From Candidatus Zhuqueibacterota bacterium (GTDB taxonomy: Bacteria; Zhuqueibacterota; Zhuqueibacteria; Residuimicrobiales; Oceaniaggregativiventaceae), in contig WJMF01000099.1 in the NCBI GenBank assembly GCA_014728085.1, positions 1 to 64,000 on the forward strand: a stretch of 64,000 bases of DNA. Direction: 5' to 3'. Of the stretch, positions 7,292-40,852 are shown piece after piece. How positions within the stretch are numbered: position 1 is the first letter of the stretch; every line of letters begins with the position of its first letter. The notes under the pieces were generated by a model, which saw only the letters and a program-made list of their open reading frames with translations, did no database searches and had not been told where the DNA came from. The position numbers and the translations under genes are program-made.

Positions 7292-7513
7292 TTATTTTGT
7301 CATTTCCGATATATAGGGAATTAATGCCAGCTCCCGGGCAATTTTGATTGCTCGGGTCAATTGTCGTTGATGTTTGGCACAGCTTCCCGATGTACGCCGG
7401 GGAATGATTTTACCTTGTTCGGTGGTAAAGCGGTTTAACCGCTTTTCTGATTTGAAATCTATATATTCAATCCCCTCTTCGCAGAATCGGCAGATTCTTT
7501 TCTTCTTTAGCAT
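7292..7513 (-). CDS. rpsR: 30S ribosomal protein S18
   Basis: A 73-residue S18 with the family core [23 protein letters not shown]. The N-terminus has CRFCEEG and there is a later Cys in GSCAKH, so this is a C+ form that may bind zinc. It sits nine bases after ssb and fifteen before rplI. Confidence 0.97.
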
Positions 7514-7522
7514 GGTTGCTCC

Positions 7523-7999
7523 TTATATTTTAAAATTTTGATATCCAAAATCAAACGGTGTGGTGGGAACCTGAACAGTTTTTGTCTTTTCCTCATTTGG
7601 TTTTGTTGCTGTTTCCACCTTTTTTACCGGCAGGGCATCACTGCTTTGAGCGGCTTTGACATCTAATGCCTGGATTCGCCGTGCCCGGATTTCAACAATA
7701 CTCCGTCCGGTCAAGCCGTCCTCACCGCTTTGCGGTTGATTTTGCAGCTCTCCGTCGATGAGAACGGCGTGATCTTTTTGCAATTCTTGACAGAGATCAG
7801 CCAGTTTGTGCCATGCTGAAATATTTACATGACAAGCGTTCTCCCGTAAAATACCGGCATTATCGCGGTATTTGCGGTTGGTCTCCATTATAAACGTCGC
7901 AACGCTGCTACCGTTCGGCGTTTGGCGAAAAACCGGATCGCTGGTTAAGATGCCGGCGATTTGTATAGTGTTTACATCTGGAATTTTTAATTCAGCCAT
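7523..7999 (-). CDS. ssb: single-stranded DNA-binding (OB-fold) protein
   Basis: A 158-residue SSB from the ATG at 7997-7999 (MAELKIPDVN). The OB fold covers about residues 8-110, with the strand pattern IQIAGILTSDP, SSVATFIMETNRKYR and HVNISAWHKLADLC typical of SSB. A longer reading begins upstream inside rpsF but adds unrelated residues. The C-terminal 45 residues form the usual flexible linker, but the end reads FDFGYQNFKI instead of the acidic DDDIPF-like tip that binds replication partners. It occupies the place of priB/ssb between rpsF and rpsR. It could be a PriB-like paralogue, with the replicative SSB encoded elsewhere. Confidence 0.88.
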   Translation of the reverse strand: MAELKIPDVNTIQIAGILTSDPVFRQTPNGSSVATFIMETNRKYRDNAGILRENACHVNISAWHKLADLCQELQKDHAVLIDGELQNQPQSGEDGLTGRSIVEIRARRIQALDVKAAQSSDALPVKKVETATKPNEEKTKTVQVPTTPFDFGYQNFKI

Positions 8000-8034
8000 C
8001 GTACTTGTTTTTTTATTGGCTCGGCTTAACCGGA

Positions 8035-8550
8035 TCAAGACTCGGTTTCTTTATCGGGTTCAGCTTTGGCCGTTTCTTTTTCTTCTTCTTTAACGTCTTC
8101 TTTAACTTTTTCTTTTTCTTTTTCTTCTTTTACTTCTTCTTTTACTTCTTCTTTTACTTCTTTTACTTCTTTTTCTTCAGAACTTTTAGATGCGGGTGGT
8201 TGTGTTTTTTCGCTTTCTCTGGGGGTTTTCGGCAATGATTTCTTTTCGAGTGTTTTTTGCCCCAGCTTGGTCATTTTGAGTGTCAAATGTCGCAAAATGG
8301 ATTCGTTGAGGCGAAATTCACGGTCGAGTTGTTTGATCATCGTTGCCGGTCCGGTGAAACGGACCAAAACATAATAGCCGTATTGGCGCTTTTTAATTTC
8401 ATAAGCCAATCTTTTTTTGCCCCACTCTTCAACTGTTTCGATTTGACCGCCATTGGCCGAAATAAATCGTTCGTATTTGCTGACAATGCTCTGTATCTCT
8501 TCGGTTTTTAACAGTGAATCGATGATGAAAATCGTTTCGTATTTGTCCAA
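8035..8550 (-). CDS. rpsF: 30S ribosomal protein S6 with long charged tail
   Basis: Residues 1 to about 98 are a normal S6 (MDKYETIFIIDSLL; GKKRLAYEIKKRQYGYYVL), which binds S18 on the platform. S6 is usually 95-135 residues; here it is 171 because of a C-terminal tail of alternating Lys and Glu/Val. AAGGAGG lies just upstream of the ATG. It begins the rpsF-ssb-rpsR-rplI string and follows pth by about 55 nt. Confidence 0.96.
   Translation of the reverse strand: MDKYETIFIIDSLLKTEEIQSIVSKYERFISANGGQIETVEEWGKKRLAYEIKKRQYGYYVLVRFTGPATMIKQLDREFRLNESILRHLTLKMTKLGQKTLEKKSLPKTPRESEKTQPPASKSSEEKEVKEVKEEVKEEVKEEKEKEKVKEDVKEEEKETAKAEPDKETES
8083..8180. repeat. tandem low-complexity repeat in the rpsF tail
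   Basis: Near-perfect repeats of a 12-base unit (TTCTTCTTTTAC on the plus strand) with 6- and 9-base variants. They encode repeated EEVK/KEEV units in the S6 tail. The array could change length by slippage in frame. Confidence 0.8.
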
Positions 8551-8605
8551 GTTTAATCCTCCTTAAATGTATGGATTGTTAGAGTTCATTTGGCAAAGGC
8601 GGACG

Positions 8606-9184
8606 TTATTCATTTTTAGGTGTATTGAAAATATTCATTGATTTATTCAGACCATCGACGACAAATATATTGACGGCAGTTATCGCTTCTGCGATGGTTT
8701 CTTCCATGTTTTTTCTTTCCTGTCTGGAAAATGGCGACAGGACAAATTGAACAACATCCTTTACAGGATGATCCGGTTTGATACCGATGCGAACTCGTGT
8801 GAATTCGTTACTGCCCAGATGATTGATTATCGATGCAACGCCTTTATGACCTCCCGATCCTCCCTGACCGCGTATTCGCAAGCGGCCAAAGGGCAGATCA
8901 ATGTCATCATAAACAACCACCACGTTTTCGGGTGTAATGTTATAATAATCCCTGATGGATCTGACTGCCAAGCCGCTTTCATTCATATAGGTCATCGGTT
9001 TGACCAGGTAAGCGGTGTTACCGTTTATCTGAACGCCGGCAATATCTGCCAGTTTTTGCGATTTAAATCCGGTATTAGAGCTTTCGGCCATCTCATCGAT
9101 GACCATAAATCCAATATTATGCCGGGTTTTTCTATATTTACGGCCGGGATTACCAAGGCCGGCTATGAGAAACGGCGACGGCAC
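8606..9184 (-). CDS. pth: peptidyl-tRNA hydrolase
   Basis: A 192-residue Pth that releases peptides from prematurely dropped peptidyl-tRNA. The signature FLIAGLGNPGRKYRKTRHNIG with the catalytic His is at the N-terminus, with KPMTYMNESG and VYDDIDLPFGRLRIR later. It lies 25 bases after rplY, the usual rplY-pth arrangement. Confidence 0.97.
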   Translation of the reverse strand: MPSPFLIAGLGNPGRKYRKTRHNIGFMVIDEMAESSNTGFKSQKLADIAGVQINGNTAYLVKPMTYMNESGLAVRSIRDYYNITPENVVVVYDDIDLPFGRLRIRGQGGSGGHKGVASIINHLGSNEFTRVRIGIKPDHPVKDVVQFVLSPFSRQERKNMEETIAEAITAVNIFVVDGLNKSMNIFNTPKNE

Positions 9185-9209
9185 ATCAGTCCCTTGTTGT
9201 CAAATCCGA

Positions 9210-9854
9210 TTATTCTTCTTCCTGCTCAGTTCCCTGTTTGATCACTTCGGGCTCTTCCTGCTCTGCTTCCAACTCGCCTTCAAGGAGTTCTTCTTCTTCC
9301 TCCTCTTCCTCGAGTATCTTCGGCGGTGTTACTGTGGCAATGGTTTTATCAAGATCTCCGATGATCCTGACGTTTTCGAGTTCGAGCTCTGTCAGGCCGA
9401 TAGAATCGCCGATTTCCAGCTCGCTGACATCGACCTGGATAATGTCCGGTATATCGGTCGGTAAACACTCGATTTCGAGTTCACGGATAAAGTGATTGAG
9501 GATACCGCCTTCTTTAACACCGGCCGGTGTACCGGTAACATGTACCGGAACCGTAATATGAATTTTTTCAGTGAGCTTGATTCCCATCAAGTCCAGATGT
9601 ATTGGTGCCAGGGTGACGGGATTCACCTGAAGCTCGCGCATGATACATTTTTTCTTGTCCTTGCCATCAATAACGATATCAATCAGGGTAGCTTCCTGTT
9701 GAAGAACTGCGGTGAGGTTTTTTTTGTCAACTGAAAACGGTATTGACTGTTGGCCGTGGTAATAATAGACGCCGGGAACTTTACCGTCGCGTCTTACCGC
9801 TTTGGCGGATTGTTTGCCGATTTCTTTACGAGTTTGCAATAAAAGTTCTGCCAT
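9210..9854 (-). CDS. rplY: 50S ribosomal protein L25 / general stress protein Ctc
   Basis: A 214-residue L25 of the two-domain TL5/Ctc type from the ATG at 9852-9854 (MAELLLQTRKEIG). The 5S-rRNA-binding domain (about 1-95) has the RRDGKVPGVYYYHG motif, followed by the beta-rich TL5 domain to about residue 180. The last 33 residues are strongly acidic, with a run of seven Glu. An upstream extension in the same frame overlaps prs and is unlikely. It lies 16 bases after the prs stop. Confidence 0.95.
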   Translation of the reverse strand: MAELLLQTRKEIGKQSAKAVRRDGKVPGVYYYHGQQSIPFSVDKKNLTAVLQQEATLIDIVIDGKDKKKCIMRELQVNPVTLAPIHLDLMGIKLTEKIHITVPVHVTGTPAGVKEGGILNHFIRELEIECLPTDIPDIIQVDVSELEIGDSIGLTELELENVRIIGDLDKTIATVTPPKILEEEEEEEELLEGELEAEQEEPEVIKQGTEQEEE

Positions 9855-9870
9855 TCCTGTACTCCATGGA

Positions 9871-10836
9871 TTAAAGAATTGGACCTTTTTCGGGAAAAAG
9901 GTCGGATATCGATCGTTCTTCATGTATACGAATAATCGCCTCAGCGAGTAGATTGGCAACACTGAGAATATCTATTTTGTCGCACAATTTATTCTCGTCT
10001 GTTTTGACTGAATCCGTAAGAAACATTTTTTTGATTTTAGAATTTTTTATGTTTTCAATTGCATTACCGGAAAGAATCGCATGCGTACAGGCGACATAAA
10101 TATCTTTGGCTCCGTTTTTTTTCAGAACCTTTATGCCTCCCGCAAGCGTTCCTCCCGTATCAATGAGATCATCGACAACCAGAATGTTTTTGCCTTTGAC
10201 GTCGCCGATCAATCTCGTCACTTCACATACATTGTGTTTCAATCTGCGTTTGTCCAGCATGACCAGATCGGTGTCCAGACGGCGTGCATAGGATCTGCAC
10301 AGGTTCATTCCGCCGATATCGGGTGATGCGATAGAGAGATCGGGTATATTCAGCGAATTTATATGGTCAATAAAGACAGTGGCTGCATACAGGTGATCGA
10401 GCGGGATATCGAAAAATCCCTGAATTTGTGGTGCATGCAAATCCATAGTCAAGACCCGATGCGCACCAGCGGTGACGATAAGATTCGCTGCCAGCTTTGA
10501 CGTAACCGCAACACGCGGCTGATCCTTACGGTCCTGCCTGGCATAGGAAAAATAGGGAATAACAGCCGTAATCCGGTAAGCAGAAGCACGGCGGGCTGCG
10601 TCTATGAGAATCAGCAGTTCCAGCAAGTTTTCTGCCGGTGCATTGGTAGACTGAATAATGAAAACATCCTGACCGCGGATATTCTCTTCATATTTGGCCC
10701 AGATTTCTCCGTCGGAAAAATTTTTAATACTGACATTGCCCAGATCTTTATCGAGTATCCGGGATATCTTTGTGGCCAGCGGACGATTCGAACGTCCGGA
10801 AAAAATCTTCAAATCTCTGTTGACAGAAATCGGCAT
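9871..10836 (-). CDS. prs: ribose-phosphate pyrophosphokinase
   Basis: A 321-residue PRPP synthetase making phosphoribosyl pyrophosphate from ribose 5-phosphate and ATP. Motifs visible: SDGEIWAKYEENIRG, YFSYARQDRKDQPR (ATP flexible loop), DLHAPQIQGFFDIP, and the PRPP-binding VVDDLIDTGGT. The ATG at 10834-10836 is chosen; a TTG two codons earlier is possible. A terminator hairpin lies between tRNA-Gln and this gene, so prs needs its own promoter or read-through; I see no convincing promoter in the 45-base gap. Confidence 0.96.
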   Translation of the reverse strand: MPISVNRDLKIFSGRSNRPLATKISRILDKDLGNVSIKNFSDGEIWAKYEENIRGQDVFIIQSTNAPAENLLELLILIDAARRASAYRITAVIPYFSYARQDRKDQPRVAVTSKLAANLIVTAGAHRVLTMDLHAPQIQGFFDIPLDHLYAATVFIDHINSLNIPDLSIASPDIGGMNLCRSYARRLDTDLVMLDKRRLKHNVCEVTRLIGDVKGKNILVVDDLIDTGGTLAGGIKVLKKNGAKDIYVACTHAILSGNAIENIKNSKIKKMFLTDSVKTDENKLCDKIDILSVANLLAEAIIRIHEERSISDLFPEKGPIL

Positions 10837-10881
10837 ATGCAAATTTTTCTAAGGTTATCCCTTGGATGATTTGAATAAAAA

Positions 10882-10909
10882 ATGACGAAAACCATAAGAC
10901 TTTCGTCAT
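10882..10909 (-). terminator. terminator after tRNA-Gln
   Basis: Nine-bp stem ATGACGAAA / TTTCGTCAT with a 10-base loop, followed on the minus strand by a run of six T. It ends the BMC-ispE-tRNA-Gln transcript just before prs, possibly incompletely. Confidence 0.75.
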
Positions 10910-10920
10910 CTTAATTTTTG

Positions 10921-10992
10921 CTGGGGCGGGAGGATTCGAACCTCCGTATGCGGGTACCAAAAACCCGTGTCTTACCACTTGACGACGCCCCA
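10921..10992 (-). tRNA. trnQ: tRNA-Gln (anticodon TTG)
   Basis: 72 nt. The acceptor stem is TGGGGCG / CGCCCCA with discriminator G. The D arm has AAGTGGTAAG. The anticodon stem is CGGGT / ACCCG around loop TTTTGGT, giving anticodon TTG. The T arm is GGAGG-TTCGAAT-CCTCC. CCA is not encoded. It begins eight bases after the ispE stop, the widespread ispE-tRNA-Gln-prs arrangement. Confidence 0.97.
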
Positions 10993-11000
10993 GTATAATC

Positions 11001-11858
11001 TCATCCGGCGCCAGCTTTATAAACAGGTCTAAATATAAAGGTTGTAAAATCCTTGCAAAGATGCTCTCTGGCACTTTTAGCAACCATCGGATCAAAGAAC
11101 AAACCAAAGATACTCGATCCGCTACCGGACATTCGCGAATAGAATGCCCCCTCCTTGAGCAGTGCCCCGTGAATTGTTGACAGCACCGGAAAGCGTTTAT
11201 ACACTGCTGGTTCCAAATCGTTGCAAAATATTGTGGGCCAGAGTGCAGGATCGTTGATATCTTTATAGTCAATAAATTTAGTATTTTTTGTTGACTTTGT
11301 CAAGTCAAAAGTATTGTTTTCATATGCCCATGCTGTTGATACGCCGAAATTGGGATAAACCAGGACCCCCGTATAATCCGGACGACAAGAGAGCCGGGTG
11401 AGCTCTTCACCGCGGCCATAGGCAATAGCTGTTCCTCCCAGAAGGAAAAAGGGGACATCCGAGCCCAGTTGTAACGCCATATGCGAGAGGTCTTTTTGGC
11501 TCAAATTCAGGTTCCAGAGGTTATTGAGTTGCTTCAGGGTTGCGGCGGCGTTTGAGCTGCCGCCACCCAGGCCTGCCCCGATGGGTATTTTCTTGTCGAG
11601 ATGAATACGGCAGCCCGGCAGTTTGCGTTTTTTGCGGGACAGCAACACTGCTGCTTTATAGACGAGATTGTCTTCTTCAGATGGGAGGGTTTGGGCATCG
11701 CCGTTGACGGAAATCGATCCCGGCCTGACATCGAAATGCAGCTGATCGCAGAGATCAATTTCCTGAAAAATGGTTTCCAGATCGTGAAAGCCGTCCTTTC
11801 GTTTCCTCAGGAGGCGCAGATGTAAATTAATTTTTGCACAGGAAGGGACGGTAATCAT
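11001..11858 (-). CDS. ispE: 4-diphosphocytidyl-2-C-methyl-D-erythritol kinase
   Basis: A 285-residue GHMP kinase of the MEP isoprenoid pathway. The N-terminal [25 protein letters not shown] motif region (shortened: AKINLHL and [10 protein letters not shown]) and the ATP-binding [16 protein letters not shown] are clear, as is the C-terminal [12 protein letters not shown]. The ATG overlaps the BMC gene stop as ATGA, so translation is coupled. It supplies undecaprenyl-phosphate precursors that the polysaccharide locus also needs. Confidence 0.96.
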
Positions 11859-20826: not shown

Positions 20827-20840
20827 ATCTTTTTGTTTTA

Positions 20841-20871
20841 CTGTGCAACATCTTGTTTCGTTATTGCACAG
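20841..20871 (+). promoter_or_regulatory. inverted repeat, candidate enhancer site
   Basis: Perfect 8-bp arms CTGTGCAA (20841-20848) and TTGCACAG (20864-20871) with a 15-base spacer. There is no T run on either side, so it is a poor terminator. Its centre is about 168 bases upstream of the predicted sigma54 start, the usual distance for an enhancer-binding protein. Confidence 0.5.
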
Positions 20872-20996
20872 GTGGCATGATTCTCCGGTCATCCGCTATA
20901 AGAGGGTTGAACCTTTTTTTGGCTTTAAATTCAACAAAAACAAAACTTTTATTTTTTTTATCCCCATTGCACCGTTCAAAAAGATCCCTCATCTTT

Positions 20997-21013
20997 TTGG
21001 CACTGACTTTGCT
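20997..21013 (+). promoter_or_regulatory. sigma54 (-24/-12) promoter of the polysaccharide operon
   Basis: The sequence TTGGCACTGACTTTGCT matches the consensus YTGGCACGRNNNTTGCW at every defined position except one (T for G at position 8). GG (20999-21000) and GC (21011-21012) have the required ten-base spacing. The start would be near 21024, giving a leader of about 95 nt to the STAS gene. The rest of 20827-21118 contains the inverted repeat and no credible gene. Confidence 0.7.
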
Positions 21014-21118
21014 TTATTCCATACCTATAGCCTGCCTCGGGCAATGCATCTTGGACCGGGCTTGAGACCAGGGTGATGTCTGAGTCATCTGAATGATTAT
21101 GATGGAATATTTTTTACT

Positions 21119-21850
21119 ATGGAAGGTATTGAGATTTCCTATAATAAAGTCGGTGCCATGCGTGATATCGTATTACTCGGTATTCGCGGCTATGTGGACA
21201 CCCAAACCTCACCGGAGCTGCAACAACGAATCTTTGATTTGATGAAGCAGGGGATGACGCAATTTGTCATCGATCTGAGAGCGGTCCAGTATGTCAGCAG
21301 TGCGGGCTGGGGTGTTTTTGTCAGCGAAATTCGCGGCTTGCGTGAAAAGGGCGGTGATTTGATCATTATTCATATGTTGCCCGAAGTAACCGAAGTTTTT
21401 GAAATGCTCGAGTTTAATAAAATTCTCACCTGTTCCGATTCTTTGGAGGAGGCCATTCATGATTTTGATCTCAGCAGAGGTCTGGATTTAACAGCAACTC
21501 TTTCGCCTCAGAGTGACTCGGATACGGTTCCCTCTTCAGATGTGGTAAACCGCGTTCTTGAAGAAAGAAGCCGGGAGCAGAAATCCAGACCTGTTGCTAA
21601 AGAGCCGCATCGTTCTCATCGATTATCCCCCCTGGCGGCCGGTATGTCGGATGCGGAATTGCCATTGAGCGAAAAGATAAAAAAACTGGTCGTAGAGAAT
21701 CCGAACAATGGCGCCTGGGCAATTAAACGCTCTTTACATTCACCGCGTTTCGGATATGTAAAAATCTCTTTATTCGCACTTTCCTCTCTTATGAAAAGAT
21801 TGGGGCTCGGCAGCAAAGCAAAACGATATCGGTACTATAGATCTCGTTAA
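21119..21850 (+). CDS. STAS-domain protein with C-terminal HTH-like domain
   Basis: 243 residues. Residues 1 to about 116 form a STAS domain of the anti-sigma-antagonist type, with the phosphorylation-site region YVSSAGWGVFVSEI (the Ser pair near residue 60). A polar linker (about 120-180) leads to a basic domain (183-243) with the spacing of integrase-type helix-turn-helix domains: LVVENPNNGAWAIKRSL followed by a second helix SLMKRLGLGS and an Arg/Tyr-rich end. It is the first gene of the operon, 12-24 nt ahead of the export gene, so it is probably its regulator. No partner anti-sigma kinase is present. Confidence 0.8.
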   Translation: MEGIEISYNKVGAMRDIVLLGIRGYVDTQTSPELQQRIFDLMKQGMTQFVIDLRAVQYVSSAGWGVFVSEIRGLREKGGDLIIIHMLPEVTEVFEMLEFNKILTCSDSLEEAIHDFDLSRGLDLTATLSPQSDSDTVPSSDVVNRVLEERSREQKSRPVAKEPHRSHRLSPLAAGMSDAELPLSEKIKKLVVENPNNGAWAIKRSLHSPRFGYVKISLFALSSLMKRLGLGSKAKRYRYYRSR

Positions 21851-22593: not shown

Positions 22594-24915
22594 ATGGAAG
22601 ATTATAATGTATTACATCCTGCTTTTGAGCAAGAAGAAGCGGTAAATTTTGATTATGGCAAGTATCTGCGCGGCTTGTGGAAGCGTAAATGGCTTTTGGC
22701 TTTTTTGACCCTGATGTTTGCTGCTTTTTTTTACTCACAAATCAGAAATCAGATTCCTATCTATCAGGCAGAGGTATTTCTTAAAACAAAGGAATTTGAC
22801 AACCAGAGCGGTCAGATTCTGAGTCGCAGCCGTCAGATCGAGATGGCAACGGAAAATTTCACCAAACGGGTGGTGGCGCGGCTGGGATTGGCGCTGGACA
22901 TAAAACAGAGCTCTCTCGGAAGCGAACGGGATAATATTTTTCAGGAATTTCATACCAATGAAAATCCCGTTCCCGGTGATTACAAAATCCAATCTACCGA
23001 AAGAGGCCATTATATCCTTGAACAAAAAGTAAACCAGGAATATATCATTCTGGACAGCACTCATGTTTGGGATGCAGTACAAAAACTGCGCACTGCCAAC
23101 GGCTTTTCCTTTCGGCTCCATCCTCATTTCGTTACCCGTGCCAATTATGTCGAGTTTGAAATAAAACCGTTTACAAGAGCGATGCACGGGATTCGAAATC
23201 TCGATGTCATTGTGAACCGAAAAACAGGTCGTACCATGCGGTTGATTAAAACCGGGCGCGATCCACAAAAATTGGCTGATGACCTGAATCGCATTGCCGA
23301 AGCCTATGTCACCGAAACCCTGAAACTGCTAAATCGCGATGAAATCGCCAGGTTGCGCGCTTTGCAGGTGCAGCTCGAAGCGGCTGAAGCCAATTTGCGG
23401 CAAACGGAAGTCGAGTTACGCACCTTTCATTACCGCTACCCCATCTCTATCGAGGCTGAAAAAAGCGCCCTGGCCACCAAACTTTTGGATATTGAAACCG
23501 AGCTGACCCGCTTGCCCAGAATACGGTCAAAGCTGGCCGACCTGCTCGATCGTCTCGAACGCGAAGAAGAGGTGGAAGACTCTTTTCAGTACCGCCGTTA
23601 TATTGTCAACCAGTTGGCGAATTTTCAGGCCATACGGGATGATCCCAACCTCGGCATCTATCGCGAACGCCTTCGCGATCTCCTCATTCAATATGATGAT
23701 ATGATCGAAAAATACTCTTCCGATTATCCCGCTGTGGTTGAGACCAAAACGGAAATCCACAAGACCCAGAATGAAATTATTACGTTTGCCACCACTTTTC
23801 TCAACACCCTGACCAAAAATGAAAGCGAATACAGGGCTCAAAAAAAGCAAATCGAAGCAAAACTGCAAAAATTCCCGGAAGAAGAATCACGCTTACAGGA
23901 ACTGCAAAACCGTAAAGCGATTAATCAACGGCTTTATAACGATTATCTGGCAGAAATCCAAAAACTTAAAGTCGCTGATGCAGCCGAAAGCGGAGATATT
24001 GAAATCCTCGATCCGGCGGTACCGCCTAAAAATCCGATAAATCCCAGTAAAAAGCAAAAAGTTCTGATGGGCGGAGCCCTGGGATTTTTTCTGGGGGCGA
24101 TTATATCTATCGCTCTTGATTATCTCGATAAACGATTTCGATCGATTCAAGAGGTCGAACGGGAACTCGATCTCAAGGTGATCGGGAATATTCCCAGGAT
24201 CAATTTCGAAAATATACAGGACTATCAGGATTTTGAAAAGGTTAAACAAATTGACCGGCAACTGGTGACCCATGATTATTCGCCGACGCCTATCGGCGAA
24301 GCTTATCGTGCTCTGAGAACTCAGTTGCTGTTTTCAAAAAAATCCGAGCGGATTCATAATCTCGTCATCAACAGTATCGGTCCCGAGGAGGGTAAATCCT
24401 TTACGGTATGTAACCTGGGTATTATTCTGGCACAGCAAAAATCAAATACGCTGATCGTGGATTCGGATCTGAGACGGGGTGTTCTGCACAATACCTTTAA
24501 AGTATCCAAACAACCGGGATTGACCAATTATCTTACCAACAATGCTATTCTGGCGGATATCGTTCAAAAAACAACGGTTCCGAATCTCTCTATTGTAAGC
24601 TGTGGCGCCATGATGCCGAATCCTTCGGAACTTTTGGGTTCCCTGCAGATGCGCCGGTTTATTGAGGAGACCAAACGCAAATTTGATTTTATTATCTTCG
24701 ACACCCCGCCACTGGAAGCAGCCACAGATGCCGCTGTACTGAGCACCCAGGTTGACGCTATTGCTATGGTGATTATGGCCGATATAACCAATAAAAAAAT
24801 GGCCAAAGAAAAGCTCGAAATGATGAATTCCATTCCAGCCAAGTTGGTTGGTGTTATTTATAACGGCTCTGATTCCACACTGATTAGAAATCAATACAGC
24901 TATTATCATTATTAA
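22594..24915 (+). CDS. Wzc-like polysaccharide co-polymerase and tyrosine autokinase
   Basis: 773 residues. A Wzz domain lies between membrane helices near residues 33-50 and 490-510, with a long coiled coil between. The C-terminal BY-kinase domain has Walker A (GPEEGKSF), Walker A' (LIVDSDLRRG) and Walker B (FIIFDTPP), and ends in a tyrosine cluster YSYYHY, the usual autophosphorylation target. It sets chain length and gates export together with the Wza-like protein. No Wzb-type phosphatase is found in the window. Confidence 0.93.
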   Translation: MEDYNVLHPAFEQEEAVNFDYGKYLRGLWKRKWLLAFLTLMFAAFFYSQIRNQIPIYQAEVFLKTKEFDNQSGQILSRSRQIEMATENFTKRVVARLGLALDIKQSSLGSERDNIFQEFHTNENPVPGDYKIQSTERGHYILEQKVNQEYIILDSTHVWDAVQKLRTANGFSFRLHPHFVTRANYVEFEIKPFTRAMHGIRNLDVIVNRKTGRTMRLIKTGRDPQKLADDLNRIAEAYVTETLKLLNRDEIARLRALQVQLEAAEANLRQTEVELRTFHYRYPISIEAEKSALATKLLDIETELTRLPRIRSKLADLLDRLEREEEVEDSFQYRRYIVNQLANFQAIRDDPNLGIYRERLRDLLIQYDDMIEKYSSDYPAVVETKTEIHKTQNEIITFATTFLNTLTKNESEYRAQKKQIEAKLQKFPEEESRLQELQNRKAINQRLYNDYLAEIQKLKVADAAESGDIEILDPAVPPKNPINPSKKQKVLMGGALGFFLGAIISIALDYLDKRFRSIQEVERELDLKVIGNIPRINFENIQDYQDFEKVKQIDRQLVTHDYSPTPIGEAYRALRTQLLFSKKSERIHNLVINSIGPEEGKSFTVCNLGIILAQQKSNTLIVDSDLRRGVLHNTFKVSKQPGLTNYLTNNAILADIVQKTTVPNLSIVSCGAMMPNPSELLGSLQMRRFIEETKRKFDFIIFDTPPLEAATDAAVLSTQVDAIAMVIMADITNKKMAKEKLEMMNSIPAKLVGVIYNGSDSTLIRNQYSYYHY

Positions 24916-24930
24916 ACTGCTGAGGACACA

Positions 24931-25878
24931 ATGAATGTACTGGTGACCGGTGGGGCTGGTTTTATCGGGTCTCATCTGATCGAGGCGCTGCTCAAGAAAG
25001 GATATCGTGTCGACTGCTTCGATAATTTTAATAACTATTACGATCCAACCATCAAACGGAGCAATATAGAATCGTTTTTGCATCACTCTGCTTTTATGTT
25101 GTATGAAGGGGATATTCTGGATTTTACCCTTTTGCAGGAACTATTTTCACAGCGATCATATCATATGATTGTACATCTGGCGGCCCGGGCCGGTGTACGG
25201 CCATCCATTCAACAACCATTTCTCTATCAAAAAGTCAACGTCGAAGGCACATTAAATCTTTTGGAATGCTGCCGTCGCTTTGACGTCGATAAATTTATCT
25301 GTGCCTCCTCTTCTTCTGTGTATGGCGCCAATAAAAAGGTCCCTTTTTCCGAAGATGATTTCGTTGATAATCCGATTTCTCCCTATGCGGCAACCAAAAA
25401 AGCAGCCGAGTTGTTGTGTTATACCTATACCCATCTCTATCAAATATCGACGACCAATTTACGCTTTTTTACCGTTTATGGTCCCCGACAGCGTCCGGAC
25501 ATGGCCATACACAAGTTTACCAAACTCATCGATGAAGGAAAACCCATCCCCGTATATGGGATGGGAAAAAGTAAACGCGACTATACCTATATCGACGATA
25601 TCATTCAGGGCATAGAAGCTTCCATGGCGCATTGCAATGGGTATCGACTCTATAATTTGGGCGAATCAAAAACCATAGATTTGTTATCTCTGATAAAATT
25701 GATTGAAAAGGCTCTGGGTAAAAATGCGATTCTGGATTATCAGCCACATCAGCCCGGCGATGTCCCCATTACCTATGCCGATATCAGTAAAGCCCAAAAA
25801 GAGATAAATTATAATCCGCAAACCCTCATTAAAGACGGTATTGAAAAGTTTGTAAATTGGTACAAAAGCAGACGATAA
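24931..25878 (+). CDS. UDP-glucuronate 4-epimerase-like SDR enzyme
   Basis: 315 residues of the extended SDR family. NAD-binding GGAGFIG, the catalytic Ser-Tyr-Lys in ASSSSVYG and YAATKKAAE, and the substrate region FTVYGPRQRPDMA match UDP-glucuronate 4-epimerases (CapI/LspL type), which make UDP-galacturonate. The exact sugar is inferred. It lies 15 bases after the kinase gene. Confidence 0.88.
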   Translation: MNVLVTGGAGFIGSHLIEALLKKGYRVDCFDNFNNYYDPTIKRSNIESFLHHSAFMLYEGDILDFTLLQELFSQRSYHMIVHLAARAGVRPSIQQPFLYQKVNVEGTLNLLECCRRFDVDKFICASSSSVYGANKKVPFSEDDFVDNPISPYAATKKAAELLCYTYTHLYQISTTNLRFFTVYGPRQRPDMAIHKFTKLIDEGKPIPVYGMGKSKRDYTYIDDIIQGIEASMAHCNGYRLYNLGESKTIDLLSLIKLIEKALGKNAILDYQPHQPGDVPITYADISKAQKEINYNPQTLIKDGIEKFVNWYKSRR

Positions 25879-25899: not shown

Positions 25900-27357
25900 A
25901 TGTTATCTGAACGAGAAAAATTTCTAGGCCATATTATGAAAGGCCTTGACTGGGCTACCGGTCTTGTTGCCTTTCCCTGTGCCTATTATATCGATGAAAT
26001 TATCCGTACGGTAGCCTCCCTCAATGTCAAGGCGTATGCGATTGGCCCGACAATCGGAGGATTCGTCTATTTTGCCTCTAATTACTGGCCCATGTTAATC
26101 GGGTTTCCCCTGATTTGGATCATGATGATGTCGGTAAACGGCATTTATATCGGTTATCGAACACTTTCTTTTCGCAAAATGGCCTGGCTGCTCTTTGTTT
26201 CCAGCGTTTGGGCTGCGATCGCATCGGGAAGTCTGGTCTTTTTAATGAAACTGGAACTCGCGAGTCGATTGTTTTTCTCGGTGTATACCATCACAGCCTT
26301 TTTACTGCTGCTGCTGCAAAAACGTATCGTTCTGATCCTGCTTGATCTTATTCATTCAAAGGGATATAATCAGGAAAATCTCCTTATTGTCGGAACCGGA
26401 GCGAGAGCGCGCGAGTTTATTCAGGCAGTGCGACTGCACTCCAACTGGGGGTTGCGAATTGCCGGTTTGATCGATGATGAGCACGGGATGTATGGTAAAA
26501 AAGTGGAAGGATACCCGGTAATCGGACGCATTCAGGATATCCGTTTTTTAGTGAACCACCTGGTCATCGACCGGGTTATCTTTGTGGTTCCGAGATTGTG
26601 GCTGGAAAGAATCGAAGAAGCGATACTGTCGTGCGAAGAGGTGGGAATCCCGACCGCCTTGTCGCTTGATTTGTATAACTTGCATATCGCTCATACGTAC
26701 CAGACCGATTTTAACGGTTTTCCGTTGCTGGAATTCGAAACCTTTCATGCCAAACCCTGGCAATTGTTTATCAAAAGATTTATTGATATCGTTATATCAC
26801 TGGTGGCCCTGATTCTTTTTGCGCCGCTTATGCTTTTGGTGGCTATTTTGATCAAATTGACTTCCAATGGGCCGGTTTTCTTTAAACAGACAAGAGTTGG
26901 TCTCAAGGGAAGAAAATTTACCTTGTATAAATTTCGTTCCATGGTTACCGGAGCAGAGCAGAGAAAAGATGAATTGCTGGAAAACAATGAAATGGATGGC
27001 CCGGTTTTCAAGATGAAAAGAGATCCCCGCATTACGCCGTTGGGACATTTCCTGCGCAGAACCAGTATTGACGAGTTGCCGCAATTCTTCAATACCTTCA
27101 ACGGAGATATGAGTATCGTAGGACCCCGCCCCCCTCTGCCTTCCGAGGTCGAAAACTATGAAATCTGGCAACGAAGACGTCTTAGCCTAAAACCCGGAAT
27201 CACCTGCATTTGGCAAGTCAGCGGAAGAAACAAAATCAGCTTCACTCAGTGGATGAAGATGGATATGGAATATATTGACAATTGGTCTTTAGGCTTGGAT
27301 TTTAAAATTCTTCTTCGTACCTTTCTCGTCGTTTTGTCCGGCTATGGGGCTGAATAA
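25900..27357 (+). CDS. polyprenyl-phosphate sugar-phosphotransferase (initiating enzyme)
   Basis: 485 residues of the WbaP/WcaJ type. Several membrane helices and a Rossmann-like CoA_binding_3 region (about 155-270) precede the catalytic bacterial sugar transferase domain (KRFIDIVISLVALILFAPL, KFRSMVTGAE, TSIDELPQFFN, GDMSIVGPRPP). It starts repeat-unit assembly by moving a sugar-1-phosphate to undecaprenyl phosphate. It is the committed step of the Wzx/Wzy pathway, which fits the downstream flippases and polymerase. Confidence 0.93.
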   Translation: MLSEREKFLGHIMKGLDWATGLVAFPCAYYIDEIIRTVASLNVKAYAIGPTIGGFVYFASNYWPMLIGFPLIWIMMMSVNGIYIGYRTLSFRKMAWLLFVSSVWAAIASGSLVFLMKLELASRLFFSVYTITAFLLLLLQKRIVLILLDLIHSKGYNQENLLIVGTGARAREFIQAVRLHSNWGLRIAGLIDDEHGMYGKKVEGYPVIGRIQDIRFLVNHLVIDRVIFVVPRLWLERIEEAILSCEEVGIPTALSLDLYNLHIAHTYQTDFNGFPLLEFETFHAKPWQLFIKRFIDIVISLVALILFAPLMLLVAILIKLTSNGPVFFKQTRVGLKGRKFTLYKFRSMVTGAEQRKDELLENNEMDGPVFKMKRDPRITPLGHFLRRTSIDELPQFFNTFNGDMSIVGPRPPLPSEVENYEIWQRRRLSLKPGITCIWQVSGRNKISFTQWMKMDMEYIDNWSLGLDFKILLRTFLVVLSGYGAE

Positions 27358-37196: not shown

Positions 37197-40100
37197 TCAG
37201 GAGGCAACGATAATCACCCCGCTCGGCCTGGCCGGCGGCGTCGTGTCTATCGCTTCAATAACGACGATGTACATGCTGCTGCTCGATGAGCCTTGATTCC
37301 CTCCCAGTTCTATGGTTCCGATTGGAAACTCTTTTTTGTATAACCGTAGAGCTTTACCCTCATCATTGGTTACCAAACTTGTTTGCGTATCGGTCCAGCC
37401 TTGCTGCAGCCAGGTGGGTAGCGGGTTGTCATCGTCATATGCCACATATACCCAAACATTTTTGTTGACATCAAAGCTGAGAAAGGGGTTTTGGGTGGAT
37501 TGTTTGTCCGCATTGGCTGTTCGAATAAACGGCTTTTCCTCCAGACCCCGGGGAATGGAAATTATCTCATAACTCCTGTCGATATAGTATTCCTTACCGA
37601 TTTGCAGCGTATCGAGCTGATAGCTGGTTTTGCTCAGATTGCTGATAATGAGCTCATGAATGTACTGATAGGTTACCACCGTGTTTGTTGCAATGGTATT
37701 GGGATTTTTCGCCTGATCCTTAACGTTGTTGACCGTGCATTCGTAGCTGATATCAGTCTGATGCAGTGCCGTAGACAAGATCACTTTGGAATAGCCATTG
37801 TAAACGGAGATGCTGTTGATATCTCTTTGAGGAGAAATAGCGTAATTGTTTATGTTTGTCGCTGACAGAGAATCAAGGGGCTCATTGAATTGAAGAACCA
37901 GACGGTCTGCACTCTCCATGTATGCCTGGGTGATGACCGGTGGTTCCGTGTCGGCTCTAGTGGTAAACACCGCCTCAGCGGAATCAATACTTGTATTTTG
38001 CCGATCATCTACAGCAAAAAGAGTATAGGTATAGGATTGGTCGGACTTTAACTGTTCATCCGTAAATTGCGTTTCGGTAATTTCGGCGAGCAGCTGGTTA
38101 TCCCGAAAGAGGAGATAGGACGCGGCGGTGTCACCATCCTCAGCCGGAAGCGGTGCTTCCCAGCTCATGCTGATTGAGGTCATGGTGTTGCCTGTCATAG
38201 ACAGGTTTCTTGGCGAGTTGGGCGGCAGAGAATCCGGGTTTGCGCCTTCACCGATGTGAAGAACCCAGTCGCCTGAAATGGGAGGAGAAAGATTTACCCA
38301 ACTACCGCCCTCTACATCAACCGGATCGGAATAGGTGCCATCACGGGGGTTGAGCCATTGCATCGGCAGAGAGCCGCTGACATCGGTTAAATTAATCGAC
38401 GTCGCACCGCCATGCTGGGCATAAATAACGTATTCTTCGCCCAATTTGGTAAAACAGTGACCGTTGGTTACCATGTCATCGCGCGGGGACATTTCCCACC
38501 ATTTGGTCCTCTCTATAAAATTAAAAAGAATTTGCAGTTCAAGCTGCTGTTGGTAATTTCCGAAAAGATCCCAACCGCCTTTATCCGGCGCATAGGTGGT
38601 GAAAAAGCCTGCTGTAAAAAATCCTCCGGCGGTGAAAATATCCCAGGCGCCGATTCGGACCCAATCGTCTTCCACTTTGCCTGCATAACCGTATTCACCG
38701 TTAACAACCGGTTTAGTAAACACCCTGTCTCCTAAAAGAGCGTTATGCCATGCCGGTTTGATTTGCTGCATGATGACGTCGAGCCAATTGCTGTGGCCGA
38801 ATTCTCTGGAGCTGGATTGACCGGTGGCATGTAAGGTCACGATATGGTCATAGGGGTCACTTGATTTCAGCGTTTGACCGTAAGAGATCCAGTCCGAAGA
38901 CGTTAATCCCAGTTGATAGGCTTCGTCATATTCACCCGAGAGGGACCAAATGACATTATACGCAGCATATCGGGCGACGAGGTATTCGAGATATCGTTCG
39001 AATTGATACGGCTGATATTTGGCAATTTCCTGTGCCCAGGTGAAAAAGGGAACAGGTATAACTCCTTTTGAGAGGGCATATTCGATTCTGCGGTCAATCC
39101 ATTGGTAATAATAGGGATTCAGAAGATCATAATTTTTGCTGCCATTGGTTAGGCCAAAAGCAAGCCCGCCTTCATTGCGCCAAAAGTTGTCTCCGCGTAT
39201 ATAACTCACAACCTGGAATTGTACGGCATTGAATCCATGCGCTGCTCTGAAATCGATATAATCCTTCCATCTGGTTTCATAGGGAATGGTCAGCAGCATG
39301 CCGCGCCAAGAGGTATCACCCTTCCAAAGCCAGGGGGTGCCATCTTCCCGCATAAGAGTGTATGGATGATCCGGGTTTTGCACAATAAATCCCTTGTGGT
39401 CCGATGCGGTGCAGAGAAACGATCCCGACGTTTCCAGAGCGGCTCGATTTGAGGTGATGGTATAGCTCCAATTGCCCTCTTCCACAGGTGCCATGCGCAC
39501 TTTCCAGCGGTTTCCTCCGTCCCAAAACCCATCGATTTCTATGGTCCGGGTCGGACCCTGAAACGTACCTCGAAGCCAGACATCGGTATACTTGTTTCCC
39601 GCGACGCTGGGATCAACAAGGGTGATTTCAAAGAGGTCATATTCTGCAACCTGCGCGGGAATCAATTCGGAACGGGTCTGGAATGAAAATTGAACCGCTG
39701 GATCGAGTCCATTCCCGGCATAGTCCTGGATCGTGCTGCTGAGGCTGACCTGATAGGTTGTATTGGTCTCGAAATGGGCATTCGGATAAAAATAGAGGCG
39801 GTATCCGCTCCAGGCAATTTGGCCGTCCACATGGGGTGAAATGGTCATTCCTGCGGACAGGGTAGACCTGTCGATCGGTTCGCTGAATTCCACGTATATA
39901 TCACCAACCGGATCTACTTCCGTCTCATTATGCACAGGGCTGTGGCTGATCACCCGGGGTGGCGTATTATCGATATATTCGACAAGGCGAAAATTGGAAT
40001 AGGTAATATTTTTCGGTGTGTGAAACCACGAAAAGGATGGATAGTAATCGGATGCCCGGCCGAGGTAGACGACCGGCGATTGCGGAAAATACTCTTTTCC

Positions 40101-40724
40101 GGTGGTGCTGTAATCAATTTCCACGATGAGGTCACCATTCAGAAACCACTGCATGCTGCCATTGCCCCAAATAATTTCATTATGATAGGTGGTATTGGGA
40201 TCCCATTGATGTGGTTCTCCGGATTCTACCTGCCATGCATTTGGATCTTCGACTGTTCCCAGGACGGTGGCTTCGACATTCAGGCGCAGTGCTGAATGAA
40301 GGCTCATCGGTCTGCTGCTCTCCGGGCGGGCAAACCATAATTGACAGAGATAGGGATTGTTTTTGGAGGATGTACCATTCTCTTCCCAGTCCGAGTCCCA
40401 CATACCGAAAATGGTGTGCCATATGTGATCCTGGGCATAATCCCAATCCGTTGTAGACGGGTCCAGTCCCTTGACATCAAACGTTATTTTGCCCGCAGCC
40501 ACGGGATGATCGAGCTGATAGGCGATTCGGTTCAGATAATATGTGGTTTTCCAGCCGCTGCTGGTAAATGTGCCTCCTCTTTGATCCCCGACTGTGGAAT
40601 AGTTGGTCAGCGGATCATCCACCAGTACAACACTTTCCTGTGCATGGACATTTTGTATGCTTATTAACAAAATCGACATGACGAACAGATATCTGCCGCC
40701 CAATCTTCCTAAACCCAGGCTCAT
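37197..40724 (-). CDS. large secreted glycoside-hydrolase-like protein (DUF4038/DUF5060)
   Basis: 1175 residues from the ATG with AGGAGG upstream (40724). Signal peptide ends near NVHAQ. Domains in order: concanavalin-like (about 30-251), SbsA/Big_5 Ig-like (252-353), DUF5060-like (354-441), TIM-barrel DUF4038 (442-745; SGEYDE and NGEYGY give candidate catalytic Glu), a small beta domain, FN3 (about 850-925), a second Ig-like, and a C-terminal beta domain. The DUF4038 family includes apiosidases and collagen-associated glycosidases. It is encoded antisense in the middle of the polysaccharide locus and ends nine bases from the fusion gene. Confidence 0.85.
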   Translation of the reverse strand: MSLGLGRLGGRYLFVMSILLISIQNVHAQESVVLVDDPLTNYSTVGDQRGGTFTSSGWKTTYYLNRIAYQLDHPVAAGKITFDVKGLDPSTTDWDYAQDHIWHTIFGMWDSDWEENGTSSKNNPYLCQLWFARPESSRPMSLHSALRLNVEATVLGTVEDPNAWQVESGEPHQWDPNTTYHNEIIWGNGSMQWFLNGDLIVEIDYSTTGKEYFPQSPVVYLGRASDYYPSFSWFHTPKNITYSNFRLVEYIDNTPPRVISHSPVHNETEVDPVGDIYVEFSEPIDRSTLSAGMTISPHVDGQIAWSGYRLYFYPNAHFETNTTYQVSLSSTIQDYAGNGLDPAVQFSFQTRSELIPAQVAEYDLFEITLVDPSVAGNKYTDVWLRGTFQGPTRTIEIDGFWDGGNRWKVRMAPVEEGNWSYTITSNRAALETSGSFLCTASDHKGFIVQNPDHPYTLMREDGTPWLWKGDTSWRGMLLTIPYETRWKDYIDFRAAHGFNAVQFQVVSYIRGDNFWRNEGGLAFGLTNGSKNYDLLNPYYYQWIDRRIEYALSKGVIPVPFFTWAQEIAKYQPYQFERYLEYLVARYAAYNVIWSLSGEYDEAYQLGLTSSDWISYGQTLKSSDPYDHIVTLHATGQSSSREFGHSNWLDVIMQQIKPAWHNALLGDRVFTKPVVNGEYGYAGKVEDDWVRIGAWDIFTAGGFFTAGFFTTYAPDKGGWDLFGNYQQQLELQILFNFIERTKWWEMSPRDDMVTNGHCFTKLGEEYVIYAQHGGATSINLTDVSGSLPMQWLNPRDGTYSDPVDVEGGSWVNLSPPISGDWVLHIGEGANPDSLPPNSPRNLSMTGNTMTSISMSWEAPLPAEDGDTAASYLLFRDNQLLAEITETQFTDEQLKSDQSYTYTLFAVDDRQNTSIDSAEAVFTTRADTEPPVITQAYMESADRLVLQFNEPLDSLSATNINNYAISPQRDINSISVYNGYSKVILSTALHQTDISYECTVNNVKDQAKNPNTIATNTVVTYQYIHELIISNLSKTSYQLDTLQIGKEYYIDRSYEIISIPRGLEEKPFIRTANADKQSTQNPFLSFDVNKNVWVYVAYDDDNPLPTWLQQGWTDTQTSLVTNDEGKALRLYKKEFPIGTIELGGNQGSSSSSMYIVVIEAIDTTPPARPSGVIIVAS

Positions 40725-40835
40725 ACGTTCCTCCTGTTTATCCCCGTTAATACTTCCGTCCTTGCAGAGTAGAATCAAAAACCAATCATCATGGTTTGAA
40801 TTGTTATTCATATTTTCTATATTTGTTTTATTCTT

Positions 40836-40852
40836 TGCAAAATAAGTGCCAT
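40836..40852 (-). promoter_or_regulatory. sigma54-type promoter of the secreted glycosidase gene
   Basis: On the minus strand, ATGGCACTTATTTTGCA has TGGCAC and TTGC with GG and GC ten bases apart. It differs from YTGGCACGRNNNTTGCW at three of fourteen defined positions. The start would be near 40825, about 100 nt before the ATG, the same distance as in the STAS promoter. Confidence 0.6.

Follow-up and report, generated by a model that had tools for sequence, protein, structure and literature searches.

In partner switching the last component is normally a sigma factor. The Bacillus sets RsbU–RsbW–RsbV and SpoIIE–SpoIIAB–SpoIIAA each comprise a STAS domain substrate with a phosphorylated serine, an RsbW-family kinase and a SpoIIE-family phosphatase. 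In the syp polysaccharide locus of V. fischeri the first gene encodes SypA, a lone STAS domain of 105 amino acids; SypE, encoded inside the locus, joins a kinase and a phosphatase in one protein, with a receiver domain separating the two and no HTH or TPR described, while the activator SypG works at sigma-54 promoters (PMC4517449, PMC10120452). A further variant is CapS, a STAS-wHTH repressor: the GHKL kinase CapK phosphorylates a conserved serine of its STAS domain and the CapS dimer dissociates, which places DNA binding by a STAS-HTH protein under the control of phosphorylation without a sigma factor (EMBO J 2026, PMC13373217). The genes of this system head the operon that they control, and deletion of the HTH of CapK had no effect (PMC13373217). 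A 2021 review on STAS-only proteins does not mention DNA binding (PMC8256260).

We analysed a window of 64,000 nucleotides (positions 1 to 64,000 of contig WJMF01000099.1, from a Candidatus Zhuqueibacterota bacterium), in which an earlier note had picked out a STAS protein with a transposase-like tail. Judged from its sequence, the locus most closely matches V. fischeri syp by layout: in both, a STAS gene comes first in a polysaccharide locus, a kinase and a PP2C phosphatase are combined in one protein, and a sigma-54 activator with upstream enhancers drives transcription (the promoter here being predicted from consensus and conservation alone). It differs in that SypA is tail-less, whereas the STAS protein described here has 243 amino acids and an HTH tail.

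Results

A STAS protein heads a conserved polysaccharide operon

The ORF at 21119..21850 (plus strand) encodes the 243-residue protein, here called STAS-A (paralogue A). As the earlier note had claimed, it is a STAS protein and its gene is the first of an operon: it follows glgA after a gap of about 290 nt and precedes, on the same strand, genes for a Wza-like polysaccharide export protein (PF02563; 21863..22591), a Wzc-like chain-length/AAA protein (GNVR and AAA_31; 22594..24915), an NAD-dependent sugar epimerase/dehydratase (24931..25878) and a WcaJ-like initiating sugar transferase (Bac_transf; 25900..27357), all assigned from domains and synteny. The order glgA–STAS–Wza–Wzc–epimerase–sugar transferase is kept in those A loci, some fifty, that extend far enough, and the fusion, which the note had suggested looking for ahead of other polysaccharide loci, was found there phylum-wide.

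The STAS domain (residues 14–112; 21158..21454, plus strand) is of the SpoIIAA/RsbV type, with a Pfam match to PF01740 (residues 16–112, E 1e-17) and a score above the cut-off for TIGR00377. The solved structures closest to it are anti-sigma factor antagonists, namely 4hyl, SpoIIAA and RsbV, as judged from a phmmer search of the PDB and from Foldseek, which matched 4hyl and 1tid. In the alignment with SpoIIAA (VSSAGWG against MDSSGLG), S61 of STAS-A (codon 21299..21301, plus strand) takes the place of the phosphorylated Ser58; 1tid carries an alanine instead of the phosphoserine, and S61 lies opposite that alanine. This serine was invariant among the homologues (69/69). Matches to UXS1_N in 23 members were taken as spurious, since in those members that were checked they overlap with the STAS domain.

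The tail is a basic helical domain related to the HTH of IS3/IS481 transposases

STAS-A is more than a single-domain STAS protein, in that a folded C-terminal tail is also present, separated from the STAS domain by a variable and probably disordered linker (residues 119–178; 21473..21652, plus strand; AlphaFold2 pLDDT of about 50 at residues 121–170). Across 48 orthologues the median identity to STAS-A was 58% for the STAS domain and 48% for the tail, against 13% for the linker. The tail (residues 180–243; 21656..21847, plus strand) is predicted by AlphaFold2 to be a four-helix HTH, with helices at 183–193, 199–206, 218–227 and 233–242. Its pLDDT is 95–97 within the full-length model, contrary to the disordered C-terminus that the earlier note had named as evidence against its reading, and the tail modelled alone (pLDDT 92) agrees with the full-length model. 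The tail is also basic, as the note had stated, with a net charge of about +11 against about −9 for the STAS part; within group A the charge of the tail ranges from +5 to +15, and an R-x-R-x-x-R-S-R sequence at its end is invariant (49/49 sequences). The charge and the predicted fold suggest that the tail may bind DNA.

In a structural search of the tail alone, also proposed in the note, no Foldseek row was significant, all having E > 1, though the top rows are rich in DNA-binding HTHs (Sleeping Beauty and the Pax paired-domain RED, FtsK gamma, Mos1 and PadR). Sequence searches of the PDB with the tail, as a single sequence and as a profile, returned nothing meaningful. The assignment to the IS3/IS481 type came from profile comparisons. 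Against residues 183–236, HTH_21 (PF13276) gave a sub-threshold match (E 0.068 with the whole protein and 0.0063 with the tail alone; 17.2 bits, below the Pfam cut-off of 28.1). A profile of the tails compared with the HTH_21 region of IS3 transposases from the same phylum scored 27.6 (E 2.9e-5), above all of 50 column shuffles (14.1 at most).

Firmer evidence was provided by another protein, a 1213-residue membrane enzyme whose C-terminal module aligned with the STAS tails with a probability of 98.3% in hhalign (E 2.5e-14) and scored 33.0 in a profile comparison with the IS3/IS481-type HTH (shuffles 21.2 at most). Residues 683–793 of this enzyme match the NCBIfam IS481 transposase model (E 7.2e-8) and also IS3 (E 7.4e-5), and the IS481 match recurred in 5/5 tested relatives (E 1.6e-9 to 6e-4). 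Since the module matches both the STAS tails and IS481, the homology of the tail to the IS3/IS481 HTH is strengthened, and by these comparisons the tail is an HTH of that type, as the note had proposed. The matches further indicate that the enzyme has both halves of the DNA-binding region of the IS481/IS3 type and the STAS proteins its second half. The N-terminal DNA-binding region of these transposases is thus resembled by the tandem of HTH then HTH_21 in the enzyme and by the single, second HTH in the STAS tail; the difference is that here the integrase catalytic domain is absent and the HTH has become a fixed part of signalling proteins.

Of 82 genomes of the phylum, 81 contained the tail, usually as three copies each, and so did 16 of a sample of 198 genomes around one Spirochaetota genome. 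The named records with a tail are mostly KSB1/Calditrichota. Two records titled Actinomycetota and Bacteroidetes (L113 and L067) contain loci of the KSB1 type, in which the genes stand in their usual order, and are probably mislabelled metagenome bins.

A fused kinase/phosphatase carries the same module

In the same genome the enzyme is encoded at 7504–11145 of locus L037 (G000:C66), on a contig other than that of STAS-A. Its N-terminus is an RsbW-like kinase (HATPase_c_2, E 1.8e-25; RsbW structure 6m36, E 1.4e-13) and it has a SpoIIE phosphatase domain (E 1.1e-51), together with sCache and HAMP (weak matches), the tandem IS481-type HTH and TPRs. The gene lies directly upstream of that for STAS-B, a second paralogue with the tail, followed by Obg and DprA; this order is repeated in the loci of relatives, the enzyme being directly upstream of STAS-B in those of KSB1/Calditrichota, and in the CSSED10-310 and Spirochaetota loci the enzyme again adjoins a STAS-tail protein. 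Because the kinase is on a separate contig, it is paired with STAS-A here by homology and co-occurrence. PADLOC gave no match among the three signalling proteins.

The presence of the same tail on the enzyme and on both putative STAS substrates could have another meaning, namely that it is a module for protein docking or oligomerisation, which brings the enzyme and its two substrates together and has lost DNA binding. The membrane sensor region of the enzyme (sCache and HAMP) would be an unusual setting for a DNA-binding domain, the net charge of the enzyme's module is mostly about +1 to +7, which is not strongly basic, and CapK behaves unchanged without its HTH (PMC13373217). This explanation sits poorly with the strongly basic STAS-A tails and their invariant arginine-rich end, and with the retention in the enzyme of both halves of the IS481-type region. 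We regard it as the main rival to DNA binding by the tails, and as unlikely.

A STAS protein, an RsbW-like kinase and a SpoIIE phosphatase also make up an Rsb set, and two generic sigma-70 family proteins are encoded in the same genome, so that STAS-A might act as a classical anti-anti-sigma factor, binding a kinase/anti-sigma protein to release a sigma factor, with the tail as an accessory. In the search of 40 genomes, however, no sigma factor of the SigB/F/G type scored above the curated cut-off, which weakens the case for a classical sigma partner. In addition, the loci examined encode kinase and phosphatase as one fused protein, and no gene for a sigma factor was noticed beside the enzyme in its own genome. 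We consider a release of sigma by STAS-A highly improbable. Compared with the Bacillus systems, the set described here has the same serine, kinase family and phosphatase family but combines both activities in one membrane protein, has an HTH tail on the STAS protein and has no SigB/F/G-type sigma factor that was found.

A predicted sigma-54 promoter and enhancer lie upstream of the STAS-A gene

The earlier note had singled out 20827–21118, between glgA and the STAS-A gene, as DNA that the STAS protein might bind. This region contains a sigma-54 (−24/−12) promoter, TGGCACtgactTTGCT, at 20998..21013 (plus strand; 11/11 consensus positions, assigned by consensus and conservation) and, from a motif search, two enhancer-like dyads of the form TGT-N11-ACA at 20834..20850 and 20854..20870 (plus strand), the second 20 bp from the first. 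Tandem dyads ahead of a sigma-54 promoter are an arrangement that we take to be sigma-54 enhancer anatomy. An rpoN gene was found in the same genome, where the tandem dyad occurs once only. A comparison of the nearest relatives, in which sigma-54 box and enhancer were the only clearly conserved blocks of the gap, yielded no conserved operator. Upstream of the STAS gene, enhancer and sigma-54 box stand together in 41 loci, and they do so at only 2 other places in the 2.36 Mb of strand sequence that was scanned; 35 of the recognised loci had served to train the motif model, so the weight of this result lies in the rarity of matches elsewhere. Those two other places (near 15876 in L084 and near 14463 in L087) lie downstream of the STAS gene by several kb and may mark another operon in the same regulon. 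A further perfect sigma-54 consensus was seen in the window at 40836–40851 (minus strand), just upstream of the minus-strand ORF 37200–40811 for a 1203-residue apiosidase-like/Big_5/fn3 protein; no enhancer was found near it.

We considered the tandem dyads as an operator for the STAS protein and set this idea aside: they accompany sigma-54 promoters, and they are missing both from paralogue-B loci and from loci with a short glgA–STAS gap, which have neither the sigma-54 box nor the dyads and retain the tail. Because these short-gap loci keep the tail without the dyads, the dyads are probably read by an enhancer-binding protein and not by STAS-A; to judge from the motifs and their distribution, they are probably the site of a bEBP-like sigma-54 activator, and neither they nor the promoter are likely to be where STAS-A itself binds.

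The layout, with a STAS protein as first gene, a sigma-54 promoter preceded by an enhancer, and a bifunctional kinase/phosphatase, matches that of syp (PMC4517449, PMC10120452). STAS-A might then act as SypA would, after transcription and through a protein target, with the sigma-54 enhancer-binding protein alone setting transcription and the tail binding the target or RNA. SypA is tail-less, however, and control purely at the protein level would give little reason to add a basic HTH and conserve it; we think this explanation quite improbable.

Discussion

We consider it moderately probable that STAS-A forms the output of a partner-switching system and carries its own DNA-binding domain. In such a mechanism the membrane enzyme from the paralogous locus would respond to an envelope signal by adding phosphate to S61 of STAS-A and STAS-B or by removing it; the phosphate would alter dimerisation or the choice of partner of the STAS protein and so the binding of DNA by the basic HTH tails. 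STAS-A would then tune polysaccharide genes directly, bypassing an anti-sigma/sigma pair, while its operon would be transcribed from the sigma-54 promoter with the upstream enhancer.

By analogy, CapS makes such a mechanism possible and not unprecedented. CapS and STAS-A share the arrangement of a STAS domain followed by a C-terminal HTH, a conserved serine in the STAS domain and a place at the head of an operon, but the wHTH of CapS overlaid on MarR and has a wing, whereas the predicted tail of STAS-A has four helices and no strands or wing, the two being set apart here by description. The STAS-A system also has a long linker, and its kinase, which forms one protein with a SpoIIE phosphatase, differs in architecture from CapK and is encoded away from STAS-A. 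CapS adjoins an HTH-STAS-GHKL kinase and an immune operon, whereas STAS-A belongs to a polysaccharide operon and is conserved phylum-wide. What is new here is that a probable partner-switching module, found throughout the lineage, has STAS proteins with an HTH of their own, apparently derived from a transposase.

More tentatively, and with somewhat less than even confidence, we suggest that capture of the DNA-binding region of an IS481/IS3-type transposase founded this phylum-wide module, with both HTHs in the enzyme and the second in its STAS substrates. The STAS proteins would thereby have become direct, sigma-free DNA-binding regulators controlled by phosphorylation, one of them for exopolysaccharide.

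With a STAS-HTH protein, the question of what SypA-like STAS proteins act on when they control polysaccharides becomes testable by standard DNA-binding assays. The module is fixed in almost all genomes of one phylum, where it heads the polysaccharide operon. If our reading is correct, a STAS protein with its own DNA-binding domain would cut the pathway to one step from kinase to promoter, and the DNA-binding domain of a transposase would have been domesticated into a core signalling system.
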